Shown: positions 28,479 to 35,914 of the stretch, piece by piece | How positions within the stretch are numbered: the stretch's first letter is position 1 | Layout of the letters: every line of letters starts with the position of its first letter | Source: a virus | DNA length: 43,955 bases | Direction: 5' to 3' (one strand) | Virus record (IMG/VR): IMGVR_UViG_3300048833_000034 | Span: 1 to 43,955 of that record | The notes under the pieces: model-generated | What the model saw: the letters and a program-made list of their open reading frames with translations, nothing else | The model's database searches: none | What the model was told of the DNA's origin: nothing | Position numbers and translations under genes: made by a program

Positions 28479-29168
28479 CTAGTTATATCTGACGTTAATC
28501 AGTTCGTTGTGAACTGCAAGCTCTTGAATACGCTCTTCACCTATTTCTTTATAGATGCTTGTTGCTTTTCTTACATTGCCATATTTGTTTGGGCGTTCGT
28601 AATCTTCTTTAGCGGTTGTATACAAACGGACGTGGCACTTATTAGCCTCGTCATCGGCTCCATAGTAAGGAGACTCAAAATCTGGGGTAGACACTAACAC
28701 CGAGCCTCCAGGTGCTAAGACTTTATCAATTAAACTAAGTACAAGTTGTACGTCTTCTACGTGCTCTATGATCTCAAAGAACGTCACAACATCAAACACT
28801 AGTCCTCGTTCGGCAAACTCACGGAGTCTATCTTCAATTCTTCCTTGGTAGAACTGAGCTTCCAGCCCATGCTTTTCAGCTCGTCTGGTTGCAAGGTCAA
28901 TACCGTCTTTGGTGAGGTCAACTCCCACCACGGGAATCTTGAGCTGGTCGCACACGGAAAGGGCGAAGGAGCCGTCCAGGCATCCAAGATCCAATAGGTT
29001 CTTAGGCGCAAGTTCCTCAACTTGGTCAAAGGCCCAGCCAAAACGCGGGATGACTTCATCGACTGTAAGACAGTTTTCTTCTGGGATTGGTTCAAAGTGG
29101 TGGTGTTCGTAGAACTTTTCATAATCGTTAATTTCATCAAATTGCGTTTCAACGTAATGTCCTATCAT
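28479..29168 (-). CDS. Class I SAM-dependent methyltransferase
   Basis: 229 aa. Rossmann methyltransferase with motif I NLLDLGCLDGSFAL (about 57-70), an acidic end of strand 2 (VVGVDLT), FDVVTFFEIIEHVEDV and an LAPGGSVLVSTPD strand. This is the type often paired with glycosyltransferases in glycan pathways, so it may methylate a sugar on the virion or host surface. It is coupled to the upstream glycosyltransferase half-gene by an ATGA overlap. Confidence 0.82.
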   Translation of the reverse strand: MIGHYVETQFDEINDYEKFYEHHHFEPIPEENCLTVDEVIPRFGWAFDQVEELAPKNLLDLGCLDGSFALSVCDQLKIPVVGVDLTKDGIDLATRRAEKHGLEAQFYQGRIEDRLREFAERGLVFDVVTFFEIIEHVEDVQLVLSLIDKVLAPGGSVLVSTPDFESPYYGADDEANKCHVRLYTTAKEDYERPNKYGNVRKATSIYKEIGEERIQELAVHNELINVRYN

Positions 29169-29728
29169 TTTATTTTAGCCTCGATCACTGCGTCCCACTG
29201 CTTGGCGACATCAGCCCAGTCAACGTTAGGTATGGGTGTCCCGGTCTTCTTCTCTTTTAAAGCTTCAACTACAGCCTTGATGAACTTCTCTTGCTGGTAC
29301 TCATCGGTGTATATCACTTTAGTTTTTATCTTTGTACCACATCGTACAGTTTCGTCAAGGGCACCTACGTTTGTAGTAACTGGATAGCAGCCAGCCTCTT
29401 GAGCTTTGAGAGCGGTGATGCAGTGAATCTCGGTGAACTCAGTCGGGTAAGCCCATACCTGAATTTCTTTCATGGCTTTTGCTAGCTTAGTGTGCGATAC
29501 CCGGCCATATACAGTAACGCCTTGGTCTGCCAGTTCAGCGAACATACGCTCCATTCGGTCATAGAAATCGTCTTCACCCTGAAGGCCAACCCACGACTCC
29601 CAACCATAATATACAGACAGTGTCGCGTCGGGCACTGCCTGACGGATAGCGGGCCACATTTTGAGCAAACACTCAAGCCCTCTGTAGTAAGCACTGAAAT
29701 ATCCAACACTATTCTCCTTTTTAGTCAT
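29165..29728 (-). CDS. Glycosyltransferase GT-B C-terminal half (split gene)
   Basis: 187 aa that begins in the middle of a GT4-type fold: SVGYFSAYYRGLECLLKMWP and ATLSVYYGWESW are the first strand and helix of the nucleotide-sugar-binding C domain, and the donor site EFTEIHCITALKAQEAGCYP is present. The matching N domain is the end of the protein at 31393-33042. GroEL and a 36-aa gene lie between. It starts within the groEL stop (8-base overlap) with GGAGAAGGA upstream, so it is translated separately and must assemble with the N half, or is inactive. Confidence 0.8.
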   Translation of the reverse strand: MTKKENSVGYFSAYYRGLECLLKMWPAIRQAVPDATLSVYYGWESWVGLQGEDDFYDRMERMFAELADQGVTVYGRVSHTKLAKAMKEIQVWAYPTEFTEIHCITALKAQEAGCYPVTTNVGALDETVRCGTKIKTKVIYTDEYQQEKFIKAVVEALKEKKTGTPIPNVDWADVAKQWDAVIEAKIK

Positions 29729-31289
29729 CGTCCTTCTCCAAATCTTCTTTCTCTTTTTTGTTTGTAATCAATACCCCGGTAGTCAGGACTGAGCCGGCAA
29801 CCGATACAGCGTTTGTGATAGCTTGTTTAATTACCATAGTAGGGTCTATGATCCCATGTTCTTTTAGGTCAACCAAACTACCGTCTCCGAGTACATCAAA
29901 GCCCTTGCCGAAGTCCTGTAGCTCGTCTAGCTTTTGACCAGATCTTAGACCTGCGTTCTTCATTAGAACCTTGAACGGACTCAATAGAGCTTCTTTTAAT
30001 AGCCTGTGGCCGTCTGAGAGCTCCTCTAAGCGTCTTGAGATCTCAACATAGGTAGTAGCACCTCCTGGCACTATTCCGTCCTTTAGAGCGGCTTCTGTTG
30101 CCGCAACCGCATCGTCTACCAAGTACTTGCGTTCTTCAGCTTCCATTTCAGTGTTTCCACCAACATGGATTTGCCCGACCTTAGCGCGAAGCTGGCCGAT
30201 ACGTTTTTCAATCTTACTCTTATCAAACTGGCCTTTAGTAGCTTCTAGCTTGGACTCGAGGTTCTTAATGTACTCGTCTACATTAGATCCACCAGTTATA
30301 ACAGTTTCGCCGTGGGTTATGATGATCTCCTCACAGGTGCCTAAGTCTGCTATTGACAAATCAGATATATTCTTAGGTAGTGAGTTTCCTACGGCTTCAG
30401 TGCCGGTGATAGCAGCTAAGTCTTTCATCAACTCTACCCTGTTCTCTCCAAAGCCAGGTGCCTTTACGCCAATAACCTGGAAGTCCTGTTGCATACTCCT
30501 TAGAGCTTTTTCTAGCATGTCTGCTTTGAAGTCGTCACAGACTATTACTAGACAATCTTTTCCGTCTTCGTAAAGAGCAGGGGCTAGTTCTGCAATATCT
30601 TTAGCTGTTATGGTTTGGTGGGCAACCAAGACGACGGGATTCTTGATAGTAGTACTTTGTGTGCGAGCGTCGGTAATCTGCATTGGATTGATAAACCCTC
30701 GATCCATTGTGTAACCTTCTACAATCTCGTATTCGATTACTGGCTTGGTCCCGATCTCAACAACAACCATTCCATCTTTGCCAAGTACGTGGTACATGTG
30801 CCCAACTTCTCGGCCGATGTCTGCGTTCTCACTAGATATAGTTGCAACCTCTTGAGTCTCTTTTTCGGTAGTAACTGGTAGTGTTAGATCCTTTAATTCT
30901 TCCAAAGCGGCTTCAGAAGCAACGTCAAGTTCCCTACGGAGAACCATAGGGTTCATGCCCTTCTTGATGAGTTCGATGCCTTTGTCCATTAAGTGATAGG
31001 CCAGAATCGTACTCGTGGTGGTACCGTCCCCGACGTTATCATTTGTTTTGCTCGAGCTGGCTTTAATCATTTCAATACCAACCTGAGCACCCAAACTAGC
31101 ACCTTCTACGTTTTCGATAGACTTAGCTACAGTTACGCCATCGTGTGTAACAATAGGTTCGCCGAAGGCCTGGATAACGCCATTTTGACCTTTTGGCCCG
31201 AGGGTTGTTGACACGGCTTCATATAGGAGACGTGCACCCTCAAGTAGTTGTTCTTTGGCTTCTTCGCCTGTAATTATTTGTTTTTTCAT
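29721..31289 (-). CDS. groL: GroEL-type chaperonin
   Basis: 522 aa, full-length group I chaperonin: D50 in THDGVTVAK, NDNVGDGTTT (about 82-91) of the ATP site, LVDDAVAATEAAL and GIVPGGATTY near the C terminus. The usual Gly-Gly-Met tail is replaced by a charged KEKEDLEKDDD end. No GroES is encoded in the window. Phage GroEL can help fold capsid or other late proteins, and single-ring phage chaperonins without GroES are known. The start overlaps the stop of the 36-aa gene. Its insertion between two halves of a glycosyltransferase suggests a later arrival. Confidence 0.95.
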   Translation of the reverse strand: MKKQIITGEEAKEQLLEGARLLYEAVSTTLGPKGQNGVIQAFGEPIVTHDGVTVAKSIENVEGASLGAQVGIEMIKASSSKTNDNVGDGTTTSTILAYHLMDKGIELIKKGMNPMVLRRELDVASEAALEELKDLTLPVTTEKETQEVATISSENADIGREVGHMYHVLGKDGMVVVEIGTKPVIEYEIVEGYTMDRGFINPMQITDARTQSTTIKNPVVLVAHQTITAKDIAELAPALYEDGKDCLVIVCDDFKADMLEKALRSMQQDFQVIGVKAPGFGENRVELMKDLAAITGTEAVGNSLPKNISDLSIADLGTCEEIIITHGETVITGGSNVDEYIKNLESKLEATKGQFDKSKIEKRIGQLRAKVGQIHVGGNTEMEAEERKYLVDDAVAATEAALKDGIVPGGATTYVEISRRLEELSDGHRLLKEALLSPFKVLMKNAGLRSGQKLDELQDFGKGFDVLGDGSLVDLKEHGIIDPTMVIKQAITNAVSVAGSVLTTGVLITNKKEKEDLEKDDD

Positions 31290-31396
31290 TGACCCAGCTC
31301 CGTCCAGTTATTCATTTGTGTATTCCAGTAGAAAACTACGCCGGCTTCATCTAGGCCGTAGAGTTCTGTGTCTGTGGCTGTTATCTGTACTATCAT
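31286..31396 (-). CDS. 36-aa protein coupled to groEL
   Basis: Between the glycosyltransferase N half and groEL, with ATGA overlaps at both ends and AAAGGAG 10 bases upstream of its ATG. The sequence MIVQITATDTELYGLDE then VVFYWNTQMNNWTELG looks like a small beta-hairpin unit of the type found in beta-propeller or surface proteins (a W-N-T...N-W-T-E-L strand pair). It seems to have come in with groEL. Not a GroES: no mobile-loop or OB-fold features and far too short. Confidence 0.6.
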   Translation of the reverse strand: MIVQITATDTELYGLDEAGVVFYWNTQMNNWTELGQ

Positions 31397-33042
31397 ACAA
31401 ACTGCTCCTTTGCGATGCCATTACCAATCACCTCGCGGTCTACGTCTTCGGGGAGTAGGTCGCTGTGGTATTGACTTTTTACTAAATATGTTACGTCAGG
31501 ATAGTTTTTAACAATGTCTTTAGGGAGTACGTCGTGGACATCTACGAGCTTGACTTTGGCGTCAATTCTTTCGATGTACTGCGGAGCTCTCCACGATACG
31601 AAGATGTTAAACTTATCTCTAGTGTCTATCTTTTTCCAGTGTCTCCAGAACACGGCCTGATCTGTACCCTCGTCAGTCACCCCGTCGGCTTCGGCATAAA
31701 CAGTAACGTTATAGCCCAGCTTTGAGAGTTCCTTAGACAGGTAGACTACCGCCTCTTCAGAACCGCCCATTCCCTTATCAAGGGTGTGAGGACCCCATTC
31801 TTCATAGCCTTGGCCACAGAATATTACGATAGAATCTTCGCTCCACTCTTTTGGTTCATTGACAGAAAAGCGTAAAGGTTGTATGCGTGTGTCGTACTTA
31901 ATGTCATCTGTTAACGCATTCCAAAGTGCTCCGTCGCTCTTGAAGAACTTTCTCATCTTAGGGAGAACTGAGATAAATACTTCGGCGTCAGCCTCGTCAA
32001 GAAAATCTTTGTAGATGCTTTGAACTTCTGGCATATCTCTGATCTTACGTAGTTCGGCTAGAGCTTCGGTGTAGCGATGTAGCATGAATAGTGATCTAGC
32101 AGCAATCAGCGTAGCTCTGGCTCGTGAGCTCGGGTCCCAGACGGATAAGGTCTCTGGGTCTGGCTTAGTTTCTGAAACTCTAACCCATTCAAGTGCCTCT
32201 TCGAAGTGGTCTTGGTCTGCCTCGTACTGAGCGAGTAGCCAATACCCCATTGGATATTGCGGTTTGAGAGTTGTACACTTTGTTGCGTACTCCAAGGCTT
32301 CGTCATACTTACCGAGATGATAGGCGCACTCGCTGAGAAGACCGAGAGTTCTGTATATGTCTTCGATAGATCCACCCACTTCAAGATAGTCACTCATGAG
32401 ACCAGCGGCAGTTCTGTAGTCTTTTTTTGTAAAGTATGACATGCCTAAGTAGTGCAGGTAGCGGGGATCCTTAGTCTCAGCGTATGCGACCTCTAAGATC
32501 TTATGGTTTCGTTCGTAGGAGTTTTTCGCGTCATCAATAGTAGCGTTGTGTTTAACCTCTAGTTCAATCTTATGGGTCATAGTTGGCTCATCAGTGATAC
32601 AAGTTTCGTGCACCCATCCACGCCATGAGTAACCTTTATTAAGCTTGACAAGTCGCTCTCTCCAGTGTCTAGTGATACAGTTGCCCTGTTCGTCTTGCAT
32701 GTAGTTGTATGGCATGAAAATAGCATCTATATCATTTTCTTCGGCTATGTCAACAAGCTCAGGAATAGTCGAAAAGTCGAATGAGTCGTCAGCATCCAAC
32801 CAAAACATGTAGTCGGTTGTGCACATTTCAAGTGATGCGTTCCTTGCTTCGTCGAACTTATCGTTCCATTTACGGTACTTAAAGTTAAACGGAGCATGGT
32901 TGAAGTTATCCCTCAACTTATCAAAAGTCTCGGCATCTGATACTACAACATTGATTTCGTCAAAATAGTTCTCAGCTTGTGCGAGTAGTGTTGTTACTTC
33001 AGCCAATTCATCCTTGACAATCATTGATAGTGCTACCGTCAT
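31393..33042 (-). CDS. GT2-TPR-GT4 glycosyltransferase, N-terminal part
   Basis: 549 aa. Residues 1-130 form a GT2/GT-A domain with the D83-A-D85-D86 metal site (MFWLDADDSFDF). Residues about 180-330 are TPR-like helical repeats (YLHYLGMSYFTKKDYRTA; ALEWVRVSETKPDPE). From about 405 comes the N domain of a GT-B enzyme (GMGGSEEAVVYLSKELSKLGY, quoted in part; NIFVSWRAPQYIE) that stops at VIGNGIAKEQFV, the linker where a GT4 protein normally enters its C domain. That domain is encoded 1.7 kb on, at 29165-29728. It probably glycosylates virion or host-surface components. Confidence 0.82.
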   Translation of the reverse strand: MTVALSMIVKDELAEVTTLLAQAENYFDEINVVVSDAETFDKLRDNFNHAPFNFKYRKWNDKFDEARNASLEMCTTDYMFWLDADDSFDFSTIPELVDIAEENDIDAIFMPYNYMQDEQGNCITRHWRERLVKLNKGYSWRGWVHETCITDEPTMTHKIELEVKHNATIDDAKNSYERNHKILEVAYAETKDPRYLHYLGMSYFTKKDYRTAAGLMSDYLEVGGSIEDIYRTLGLLSECAYHLGKYDEALEYATKCTTLKPQYPMGYWLLAQYEADQDHFEEALEWVRVSETKPDPETLSVWDPSSRARATLIAARSLFMLHRYTEALAELRKIRDMPEVQSIYKDFLDEADAEVFISVLPKMRKFFKSDGALWNALTDDIKYDTRIQPLRFSVNEPKEWSEDSIVIFCGQGYEEWGPHTLDKGMGGSEEAVVYLSKELSKLGYNVTVYAEADGVTDEGTDQAVFWRHWKKIDTRDKFNIFVSWRAPQYIERIDAKVKLVDVHDVLPKDIVKNYPDVTYLVKSQYHSDLLPEDVDREVIGNGIAKEQFV

Positions 33043-33263
33043 AGTTCACTCTCCAGAATTGTTACTTTTCCATAGTCGCTGTGGATAATAGCTGGACCGC
33101 CTGGTATGGTAGACACCATAATTTCACAAGGGTTAACGCTGCAACCTTCTACGTATAGTACTTCTAGTAAAGCATTGACAGCGTTAGTTATAGATGGTGT
33201 AACCCAATCTCGATCATCGCTCAGGTCTACTAGTAAATGGTCTTCGTTTTCTTCGTCTGGCAT
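33039..33263 (-). CDS. Hypothetical small acidic protein
   Basis: 74 aa, acidic N terminus (MPDEENEDHLLVDLSDD), two cysteines near the middle (GCSVNPCEI). GAGGAAT precedes the ATG and its stop overlaps the glycosyltransferase start (ATGA). Not recognised. Confidence 0.65.
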   Translation of the reverse strand: MPDEENEDHLLVDLSDDRDWVTPSITNAVNALLEVLYVEGCSVNPCEIMVSTIPGGPAIIHSDYGKVTILESEL

Positions 33264-33553: not shown

Positions 33554-34871
33554 ATTCTCGTTTCCTTTTCTTACGCTCTGTTGGGGTGGCCTTATCAAGT
33601 GCTAGGTACCTAACCCAATCCATTGCGTGGTTATTTTTATCTTCTGGTACATTAGTTACATTTTCAGATGAATCCCTGAGGAAAGAGTAAACTTGAAACT
33701 CCCTCTGAGTATTCTTGGTAGTTGATTGTCGTAGGAACATTTTAGGCTTGCCTGTGTCTTGTCGGATAGCGAGCAGGGCTTTTACTTCCCTAATACCGTT
33801 GGCGATAGAGTCAGCCCCCTTCTTAGCGGCAGTAATACGGAATCGGCGTTTGCGTAGGGACTCAATTTCAAACCTAGCGGCACCGTCACCCAGAACTCGG
33901 GTGTATAGGTTGTCGCCCATCTTATCTTTTAAAACATATATAAGTTGATCGAGGTGTAGATCCTTTTGGTAGATCTCATCAAACACCCACCAAGTACCCT
34001 CATAGTCGATCATAACAAACCCGGCGGCAGTAGGATCGGTCATACCAAAGTCGATAGAACAGTTGTATGTTCCCCTAAACGGCATACGTTCATCGAATTC
34101 TTTATCAGGCAATACATGGACGTCACTGTCAAACTCGTTATAAACCAACTGGGTGGGGTTAACAAATTCAGCAAGCCACTCCTGGTTGAATTGATCTAGC
34201 TTGCCTTCGCGCTCATACTCTGCCCGGGTCTCTTCGAACTCGTGCTTAGGGAAATAGGTGTTGTCCATAGCAGTAGCATGTGAGTAGAAATATCTCTCTG
34301 GATCATTTTTAGCTCGTTGCATGAGTTCGTAGAAGTCGTTGATGACTCCGTTCGGTGTAGAAATAAATACAGCCCAGCCGTTCTTATCGGCTAGGGATGC
34401 TCGAATAATAGTGTCATAGAGGTATTGGCCGTCCGGGATAAAGGCGAACTCATCCATGACAGCACCCATGATACCTGTACCACGAAGTGAGTCAGGGTTA
34501 TCAGCACCCTTAAGTTCGATGCGTGTTGGAGGAAGTTCAGGGTCATGGTTGACAAGGATCTTGCCTGAAGTAGTCTCAATCTCCATACCAGATAGATGGT
34601 CGAAAGTGACGGCGAGCTCTTGCTCGTTAAACGTCATAAAGTCACCCTTATAGGTTTTACAGATGTCTCTCCAGTAAATAGACTTGGCTTGCTTATATGT
34701 CGGAGCTATGATGTAGTATGTGCCTTGTCGGAGCATACCTTCAAGCACAACTTTTTCCCATACAGCAACAGACTTACCAGAACGTCGGCCCCAGTTCAGG
34801 ACTTTGTAGCGGTGATTGTCTGCGAGAAATTCAGCTTGTTTTTCGTGCGGGTTAGGCAAAAGCAAGGCCAA
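33522..34871 (-). CDS. terL: Terminase large subunit
   Basis: 449 aa from a TTG start with a strong AAGGAGG seven bases upstream. Packaging motor: Walker A WGRRSGKS (27-34), Walker B GAVMDEFAF (about 137-145), coupling motif ISTPNG, and RNase H-like nuclease residues in CSIDFGMTDPTA, VLGDGAA and NNHAMDWVRYL. Its partner small subunit appears to be the divergently placed gene at 41165-41659, over 6 kb away. It is preceded by an HNH nuclease gene that overlaps its start by 20 bases. Confidence 0.95.
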   Translation of the reverse strand: MALLLPNPHEKQAEFLADNHRYKVLNWGRRSGKSVAVWEKVVLEGMLRQGTYYIIAPTYKQAKSIYWRDICKTYKGDFMTFNEQELAVTFDHLSGMEIETTSGKILVNHDPELPPTRIELKGADNPDSLRGTGIMGAVMDEFAFIPDGQYLYDTIIRASLADKNGWAVFISTPNGVINDFYELMQRAKNDPERYFYSHATAMDNTYFPKHEFEETRAEYEREGKLDQFNQEWLAEFVNPTQLVYNEFDSDVHVLPDKEFDERMPFRGTYNCSIDFGMTDPTAAGFVMIDYEGTWWVFDEIYQKDLHLDQLIYVLKDKMGDNLYTRVLGDGAARFEIESLRKRRFRITAAKKGADSIANGIREVKALLAIRQDTGKPKMFLRQSTTKNTQREFQVYSFLRDSSENVTNVPEDKNNHAMDWVRYLALDKATPTERKKRKREYDPDTGRALN

Positions 34872-35298
34872 AAGACACCTCCTTTTTCAACTTCCGGTAC
34901 TTTGCAGCCCTTATGTTATTGCAAGGCTTACACTGTCGTGTTCCATTATCAATGCGTACATTTTCAGTAGATAATTCGTGGCCTCTTTTGCAATGTGTCT
35001 TTCGAGCGTTGACACCTGAAACGGAATTACCCCTCAAATTGTTTTCTCTAGGCGTAACAGGTTCTAGGTGGTCTGGGTTGATGCAGTTCGTGATTCGACA
35101 GAGATGATCTAGATACAACCCTTTAGGTATGGGTCCGACGAATACTTCGTATGATAACTGATGTGCCCCCCAGTTTTTACCCTCTGCGAAGATCTTGCCA
35201 TAGCCATTAGTGTGCTTATCAACGATCCAGTGATCGTTAACTTTTATATAGCTTTTCCGTATTCTAGTAATAAGTTTTTCGTTTTGGAAGAGAGACAT
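34852..35298 (-). CDS. HNH endonuclease with zinc finger, homing type
   Basis: 148 aa. HNH core LYLDHLCRITNCINPDHLEPV, in two parts: D-H (the first catalytic His), C-N-P-D-H and R-x-N-N. A C-terminal zinc motif follows (C-K-R-G-H...C-K-P-C), typical of phage homing endonucleases. The N-terminal segment may contact DNA. It lies between the late promoter and terL, a common place for HNH genes; its insertion left terL with a TTG start just inside its 3' end. It may cut packaging-site DNA or be a selfish gene. Confidence 0.88.
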   Translation of the reverse strand: MSLFQNEKLITRIRKSYIKVNDHWIVDKHTNGYGKIFAEGKNWGAHQLSYEVFVGPIPKGLYLDHLCRITNCINPDHLEPVTPRENNLRGNSVSGVNARKTHCKRGHELSTENVRIDNGTRQCKPCNNIRAAKYRKLKKEVSFGLAFA

Positions 35299-35365: not shown

Positions 35366-35439
35366 TGGTTCAGGTGCTAGGGTTCGAACCTAGATTGCTG
35401 GGATCAAAACCCAGAGTCCTACCGTTAGACGACTCCTGA
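35366..35439 (-). tRNA. tRNA-Gln (TTG)
   Basis: Cloverleaf with anticodon TTG in stem CTGGG/CCCAG, T-arm CTAGG-TTCGAAC-CCTAG and encoded CCA. The acceptor TCAGGAG pairs with CACCTGA, with one A-A mismatch at position 6. Last gene of a seven-tRNA cluster. Confidence 0.93.
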
Positions 35440-35442
35440 TTG

Positions 35443-35517
35443 TGGCTGGATCGGTGAGGGTCGAACTCACAACCTATTGGTTAACAACCAAGTGCTCTAC
35501 CATTGAGCTACAATCCA
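35443..35517 (-). tRNA. tRNA-Asn (GTT)
   Basis: Anticodon GTT, stem CTTGG/CCAAT-type, D-arm GCTC/GAGC, acceptor TGGATTG with CGATCCA, G73 and encoded CCA. Its 5' end abuts the CCA of tRNA-His with no spacer. Confidence 0.95.
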
Positions 35518-35594
35518 TGGTCGGAGCAGCAGGGAGTTGAACCCTATCCTTCGGTATCACAAACCGACGTGCAAACCAGTTACACTACTGTCCT
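35518..35594 (-). tRNA. tRNA-His (GTG), unusual acceptor end
   Basis: Anticodon GTG in stem TCGGT/ACCGA, D-arm GTGT/GCAC, T-arm TAGGG/CCCTG with loop TTCAACT, encoded CCA. The acceptor is weak: AGGACAG against CTGCTCC gives A-C at positions 1:72 and 4:69. There is no G at -1, and one extra base precedes CCA. Identity as His rests on the anticodon. Confidence 0.82.
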
Positions 35595-35598
35595 ATAT

Positions 35599-35676
35599 TG
35601 GAGATCCTGGCGGGATTTGAACCCGTGACCTCTCCCGTGACAGGGGAGTGCTCTAACCTGGCTGAGCTACAGAATC
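35599..35676 (-). tRNA. tRNA-Asp (GTC)
   Basis: Anticodon GTC in stem CTCCC/GGGAG, acceptor GATTCTG with CAGGATC (one G-T wobble), D-arm GCTC/GAGC, encoded CCA. The discriminator is T rather than the usual G. Confidence 0.93.
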
Positions 35677-35679
35677 ATT

Positions 35680-35764
35680 TGGTGTATCGGGAGAGATTTG
35701 AACTCTCAATCCCAAAGGGCACTAGTTTCTAAAACTAGCATGTATACCGTTCCATCACCGATAC
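35680..35764 (-). tRNA. tRNA-Leu (TAG)
   Basis: 85 nt with a long variable arm. Anticodon TAG in stem CTAGT/ACTAG, perfect acceptor GTATCGG/CCGATAC, A73 and encoded CCA. Confidence 0.93.
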
Positions 35765-35839
35765 TGGTCAAGGTAGCAAGATTTGAACTTGCGATCTCGT
35801 GTTCCCAAAACACGCGGATTACCACTTTCCTATACCCTG
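35765..35839 (-). tRNA. tRNA-Pro (TGG)
   Basis: Anticodon TGG in stem CGTGT/ACACG, acceptor CAGGGTA with TACCTTG, A73 and encoded CCA. No spacer to tRNA-Leu or tRNA-Trp. Confidence 0.93.
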
Positions 35840-35914
35840 TGGCTAGAGATGAAAGATTCGAACTTTCGCTAACGGTTTTGGAGACCGTCGTGCTGCCGCT
35901 GACACTAATCTCTA
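35840..35914 (-). tRNA. tRNA-Trp (CCA)
   Basis: Anticodon CCA in stem ACGGT/ACCGT, perfect acceptor TAGAGAT/ATCTCTA, G73 and encoded CCA, D-arm GTGT/GCAC. First gene of the tRNA cluster, a few bases after a terminator-like hairpin. Confidence 0.95.

Follow-up and report, generated by a model that had tools for sequence, protein, structure and literature searches.

How does a glycosyltransferase come to be encoded in two pieces with a chaperonin gene between them, and do the pieces still make one enzyme? The question concerns a family of uncultured phages and is raised by IMG/VR virus record IMGVR_UViG_3300048833_000034, in which a stretch of 43,955 bases, called here the window, was analysed. 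The minus strand carries, in this order, terL, a 110-aa gene, a 74-aa gene, a 549-aa N half, a 36-aa gene, groEL, a 187-aa C half, a methyltransferase and the portal gene. A preceding sequence-only reading had described the N half, the 36-aa gene, groEL and the C half as a single enzyme gene with an inserted pair of genes, and all four ORFs were recovered on the minus strand at the positions that it gave. The features of the locus are as follows:

33039..33263, minus strand: 74-aa gene, with a 4-nt overlap with the start of the N half
31393..33042, minus strand: N half, GT2 (SunS-like)-TPR-GT-B N domain, 549 aa (ORF, Pfam, SunS and profile match)
31393..31827, minus strand: GT-B N domain part of the N half, about residues 406-549 (Pfam, GT-B N model, fold of the uncut homologue L031)
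31405..31410, minus strand: AAGGAG in the linker codons for K-E-Q, the Shine-Dalgarno sequence for the next gene (not in uncut homologues)
31286..31396, minus strand: 36-aa gene, a variable small cargo gene of family f36 (ORF; 4-nt overlaps on both sides)
29721..31289, minus strand: groEL, 522 aa, a divergent phage group I chaperonin (Pfam, phrog, alignment, tree)
29731..29739, minus strand: GGAGAAGGA within the 3' end of groEL, the Shine-Dalgarno sequence for the C half
29165..29728, minus strand: C half, GT-B C domain (donor-site Rossmann domain and crossover helix), 187 aa
28479..29168, minus strand: SAM methyltransferase, with a 4-nt overlap with the C half, adjoining the uncut gene in sister phages too

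The genes had been described as joined by ATGA-type overlaps at every junction. This holds for the 4-nt overlaps of the N half with the 36-aa gene, of the 36-aa gene with groEL and of the C half with the methyltransferase, but not for groEL and the C half, which overlap by 8 nt, ATGACTAA. An assembly artefact was ruled out by the identical order in nine distinct phages, including the circular record MW202497. Elsewhere in the window, an HNH_3 endonuclease gene (34852-35298) stands just before terL and overlaps its start, and seven tRNA genes (Gln, Asn, His, Asp, Leu, Pro, Trp) are clustered on the minus strand at 35366-35914.

The break lies at the boundary of the two GT-B domains, where the sequence-only reading had placed it. 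By Pfam, the N half consists of Glycos_transf_2 (residues 16-126), TPRs and the start of Glyco_transf_4 (425-504), and it ends in ...GNGIAKEQFV; the C half starts with MTKKENSVGYFSAYYRGLE and contains only the C-terminal Glyco_trans_1_4/Glycos_transf_1 domain (residues 8-158). Mapped on the fused homologue L031, the N half stops at residue 573 and the C half starts at 576, inside a 9-residue loop (573-581) modelled between the GT-B domains. The C half was ruled out as a complete enzyme, since its matches to solved GT-B enzymes are confined to their C domain. A search of the C-half profile against the PDB by sequence gave no match. Among the loci examined, no other clear case of a split elsewhere in the gene was seen. 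Locus L047 (4226-7167) has its GT2-TPR and GT-B parts in two overlapping frames; the near-identical L046 is intact, and the state of L047 is probably a frameshift error, judging from the two sequences.

The homologue set was obtained by scanning viral contigs with the C half and its alignment and then mapping every ORF with HMMs. It comprises 74 non-redundant loci: both GT-B domains are found in one ORF in 54, nine are split with groEL in the gap and 11 are split with other gap content. The HMM map shows the N and C halves together and in fixed order in every split locus. The search for uninterrupted homologues spanning both halves, proposed at the outset, was thus answered by the 54 single-ORF loci, and neither halves that are always separate genes nor a complete stand-alone C half, the two patterns named beforehand as contrary to a split enzyme, turned up when they were looked for. 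The six uncut sisters L031, L032, L034, L037, L041 and L043 measure 735-761 aa from start to stop, in good agreement with the single GT2-TPR-GT4 gene of about 735 codons that had been postulated. The contigs of L037, L041 and L033 show the gene uncut, with orf110 on one side and the methyltransferase, portal and major capsid protein genes on the other. The neighbours are therefore kept, and the insertion took place in situ, in an orthologous gene.

Other insertions were seen in uncut members of the family. In locus L044 (5863-6012), as well as in L045, L048 and L056, the interdomain linker that is split elsewhere contains an insert of about 45 aa, which is Cys-rich and resembles a zinc ribbon. 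In-frame inteins are present in L084/L085 (6319-7329), L087 (6316-7305) and L089 (5336-6130), inside the GT-B C domain near EIH|CITA, next to the donor site. A bacterial donor of the fused enzyme was also sought; genome contigs gave only two cyanobacterial GT-B relatives at 32-33%, and for this reason no donor is named.

In a tree of both GT-B domains, the nine groEL-split rows form one clade (support 95/96), which is joined with nine uncut rows at 100/100. The uncut homologues are accordingly the sister group of the split clade, as expected if an originally single gene was opened at the GT-B linker. Split and uncut forms are interleaved in this tree, and further splits at the same linker are found in L008-L015, L014, L069/L070 and L086. 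A tree constrained to hold the groEL and small-gene splits in a single clade was rejected (AU p 4.4e-6; p 6.7e-6 with L069/L070 added). The groEL rows stay with the same uncut sisters in separate trees of the N domain, the C domain and GT2; they are monophyletic in the N-domain tree only and unresolved as a clade in the C-only and GT2-only trees. Hence, the same GT-B linker was opened at least three times and probably four or five times, L086, on a long branch, being the least sure of the separate openings.

The content of the gap differs among the split loci. Members of the groEL clade all have groEL in the gap but differ in their small genes. Family f36 (36-44 aa) occurs in five of the nine groEL gaps (the window, L003, L007, L020 and L026), a second small-gene family occurs in L003, L005, L006 and L026, and the gap of MW202497 contains two other small genes. 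In L018, groEL directly follows the N half. The proposal that the 36-aa gene and groEL were inserted as a pair was consequently abandoned, given the lack of a small gene in L018 and the different ones in other members. The 36-aa ORF itself represents a real gene family. Its single occurrence beyond the groEL gaps is in L014 (1767-1871), directly after the C half and outside the gap.

The remaining gaps lack groEL. Those of L008-L011 and L013 hold two small genes, which L012 and L015 share and to which these add a DNA methylase; L014 has one 43-aa gene and L086 one 92-aa gene. A 50-aa gene is common to the gaps of L069 and L070, with HNH endonucleases in or beside the gap. These two loci (L069, 5200-6060; L070, 5080-6060) are more than 99% identical on both sides, and their HNH endonucleases differ in type and place: the gene lies between the N half and the 50-aa gene in L070 and at the start of the C half in L069. 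The 3' ends of the two N halves have diverged, which is what gene conversion at a homing site would be expected to produce.

In the linkers of most split loci, the codons ahead of those for the last QF (encoding KE, RS, RG or KG) read AAGGAG, AGAGGAG or similar. The mean anti-Shine-Dalgarno duplex energy is -6.1 for 18 unique split sequences versus -3.0 for 40 unique uncut ones (p 1e-6, for rows that share descent), a contrast partly expected for any gene end that stands ahead of another gene. Little or no linker Shine-Dalgarno sequence is present in L007, L069, L070 and L086. The Shine-Dalgarno sequence of the C half is found in the last groEL codons in all nine groEL loci. Thus, both the linker peptide and the chaperonin tail do double duty.

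Both halves are conserved. dN is about 0.15-0.28 in the N half, the C half and groEL alike, with dS nearly saturated or, in most pairs, saturated. The invariant residues of the family are all still present in the C half, and the crossover-helix residues W171, V174, A175 and W178 are invariant in the alignment of split and uncut forms. This conservation makes it likely that the N and C halves form a two-chain enzyme. Modelled alone (pLDDT 89), the C half is well folded save for its last helix; in the model of uncut L031 (pLDDT 93), the last helix is confidently placed. The models fit a last helix of the C half that lies against the N domain, an arrangement known from other GT-B enzymes.

The GT-B part of the L031 model (residues about 410-761, from 409) has two Rossmann domains and a C-terminal crossover helix, and in a search with its fold aligned to GT4-type enzymes of solved structure, with Z-scores of 29.5 to 6kih, 29.2 to MshA and 28.0 to PimA (VIA). 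The E-x7-E donor motif is incomplete: E100 is kept, but every aligned member, whether split or uncut, has K108 at the second position. The change was rejected as a mark of the split, K108 being common to uncut relatives, and with K108 in place of the second E, the exact assignment to GT4 is tentative. Residues 2-203 of the N half match SunS (PDB 7msp) with E 5.9e-11. SunS is a peptide glycosyltransferase, and the SunS-like GT2 part may be read as pointing to a peptide or protein acceptor. From this match, the TPRs and the place among head genes, a reasonable guess is that the enzyme glycosylates a phage (virion) protein or a host protein.

The chaperonin gene is assigned by PF00118 (172.8 bits) and phrog_5725 (E 5e-113). 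The Cpn60 domain spans its full length, and the ATPase residues D50, D88, D393 and D482 are invariant in the alignment. In the tree, the groEL of the split loci is monophyletic within this phage group, on a long branch, with about 31-40% identity to other GroELs found outside its clade. A GroES gene (PF00166) was sought in the window record and none was found; host GroES could serve as the partner of the phage GroEL. L074 1804-5699 (L094) has a divergent groEL between terL and an uncut GT2-TPR-GT-B gene, which this groEL immediately precedes. This single case is suggestive of a link between groEL and the enzyme.

The account that we consider probable, with good confidence in it as a whole, is that a single glycosyltransferase gene was opened in situ at the GT-B linker, took up groEL as cargo and gave two halves that dock as one enzyme. 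An ancestral phage would have carried one bifunctional gene (SunS-like GT2, TPR, GT4-type GT-B) beside the genes for its head. The opening of this gene at the interdomain linker would date from the ancestor of the group to which the window belongs, and the new gap would have received groEL and exchangeable small genes, with both halves still translated. Linker codons would have been turned into the ribosome-binding site of the cargo, and the end of groEL would provide that of the C half. Most likely, the two chains meet through the interface that is customary for GT-B enzymes, with the C-terminal crossover helix as part of it, and work as a single enzyme, whose target may be a protein of the virion or of the host. 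For GroEL, the likeliest status is that of cargo with a general folding role of its own rather than a dedicated assembly factor.

On the role of GroEL, the sequence-only reading found no support. It had suggested that the chaperonin perhaps helps to assemble the halves, and a dedicated assembly chaperone, fixed between them since the split enzyme needs it to fold or join, would be in keeping with the retention of groEL in nine of nine clade members, with the correlation of groEL and N-half distances (r 0.83), with the coupling of the translation of the halves and groEL through overlaps, and with the groEL upstream of the enzyme in the distant L074. However, the correlation may be accounted for by simple linkage, GroES was not found in the window, the 36-aa gene is optional, and the enzyme beside the L074 groEL is uncut. 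The same linker is split in L008-L015, L069/L070 and L086 with no groEL in the gap, nor was any found in their contigs, most of which are fragments. The C half alone is predicted to fold well but for its last helix, and a structure has been solved for the GT-B C domain of glycogen synthase on its own (2bfw). The groEL-free split loci and 2bfw speak against the need for a chaperonin in a split of this type, and a dedicated chaperone seems unlikely. We are similarly sceptical of a broader version, in which GroEL would capture the halves during translation and be needed for assembly, the split enzyme and the chaperonin would form an inherited unit, and the hinge would be a reusable cargo port.

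The opening itself could have come about by another route. Homing endonucleases may have opened the gene first, in the style of mobE/nrdA, with groEL or small genes replacing the endonuclease later. The different HNH genes at different gap positions in L069/L070, with their diverged N-half ends, speak for this route, as do the LAGLIDADG or HNH inteins that invade the C domain of the same gene in L084, L085, L087 and L089 and the HNH gene just before terL in the window. Yet no endonuclease or remnant was seen in the gaps of the groEL clade, L008-L015 and L014, and the presence of the 50-aa gene in both L069/L070 gaps means that the endonucleases may have entered a gap that was already open; we regard such an origin as possible, if somewhat doubtful. 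An ancient split, with re-fusion in the uncut sisters, is highly improbable. Split and uncut forms are interleaved, and by parsimony alone some losses are conceivable, but the linkers of L041/L042 (KKVKRDPHK, KTIEKKPYS) still have the pattern that is found in distant uncut relatives, which joining across 100-1800 nt of cargo would not restore, and the linkers of the uncut sisters are without a Shine-Dalgarno sequence. The joining of the pieces into one chain after transcription or translation, by an intron, a split intein or ribosome bypass, can be practically dismissed: inteins do exist elsewhere in the gene family, but here the gap is occupied by a run of intact overlapping genes that have Shine-Dalgarno sequences of their own, the N half has a stop right after the linker, and the C half has its own start and Shine-Dalgarno sequence. 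No intein sequence was found at the ends of either half from ORFs and Pfam. An intron was rejected after Rfam scans of the window and six split loci gave only tRNAs.

With opening in situ at the linker as the preferred account, the loci make up a natural series of one enzyme, uncut, cut with a small gene, with an endonuclease and with a chaperonin, in which the change from one protein to a two-chain enzyme can be followed stepwise. One interdomain hinge is a repeated insertion port whose codons double as a ribosome-binding site. With the series, it can also be cleanly tested whether a phage chaperonin has a client that its neighbours encode.

Phage enzymes in pieces have been described before: nrdA/mobE of Aeh1, topoisomerase gene 60/mobA of T4 and gene 43 of phages 25 and 44RR, the split Aeh1 ribonucleotide reductase and phage 25 polymerase being reported as active (PMC2988022). 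In these as in the window, a phage enzyme is translated in two pieces from separate genes, and the gap between them holds another gene. The stop/start overlaps are in the same style as those of Aeh1 mobE, and an uncut orthologue is present at the same genome position in relatives (here L037, L041 and L033). In the Aeh1/T4-type cases, the insert is a homing endonuclease or non-coding; here it is mainly a chaperonin. An endonuclease insert is true of mobE/nrdA and mobA/gene 60, not of every case, and here only of L069/L070 and not of the window. Unlike in those systems, the break lies in an interdomain linker, and the same linker has been opened repeatedly with different inserts.

The bipartite GT-B enzymes Alg14/Alg13 and EpsE/EpsF have an active site between N- and C-domain chains and exist in fused and split versions (PMC8993221). 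The window enzyme likewise has its GT-B N and C domains on separate chains. However, Alg13/Alg14 is GT1/GT28-like and the window enzyme is GT4-like, its N chain also bears GT2 and TPR, and its halves are separated by groEL. The likeness to Alg13/Alg14 and EpsE/EpsF is one of architecture only, as the Pfam matches here are to group 1/GT4 families and not to Glyco_tran_28. SunS (7msp, 7msn), which aligns to residues 2-203 of the N half, is a single glycosyltransferase without a GT-B part.

For the phage chaperonins of phi-EL and OBP, independence of a co-chaperonin has been reported (PMC5934643). The window resembles them in having a phage GroEL orthologue and in that a GroES gene was not found; the present groEL clade is set apart from the other GroELs found by its low identity and long branch. 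No description of groEL inside a glycosyltransferase gene was found in the literature, nor were the chaperonin insert, the repeated opening of a hinge with exchangeable inserts and the recruitment of hinge codons as a ribosome-binding site found described. In kind, a phage enzyme in two genes, as in Aeh1 nrdA, and a GT-B enzyme in two chains, as in Alg13/Alg14, are already known.
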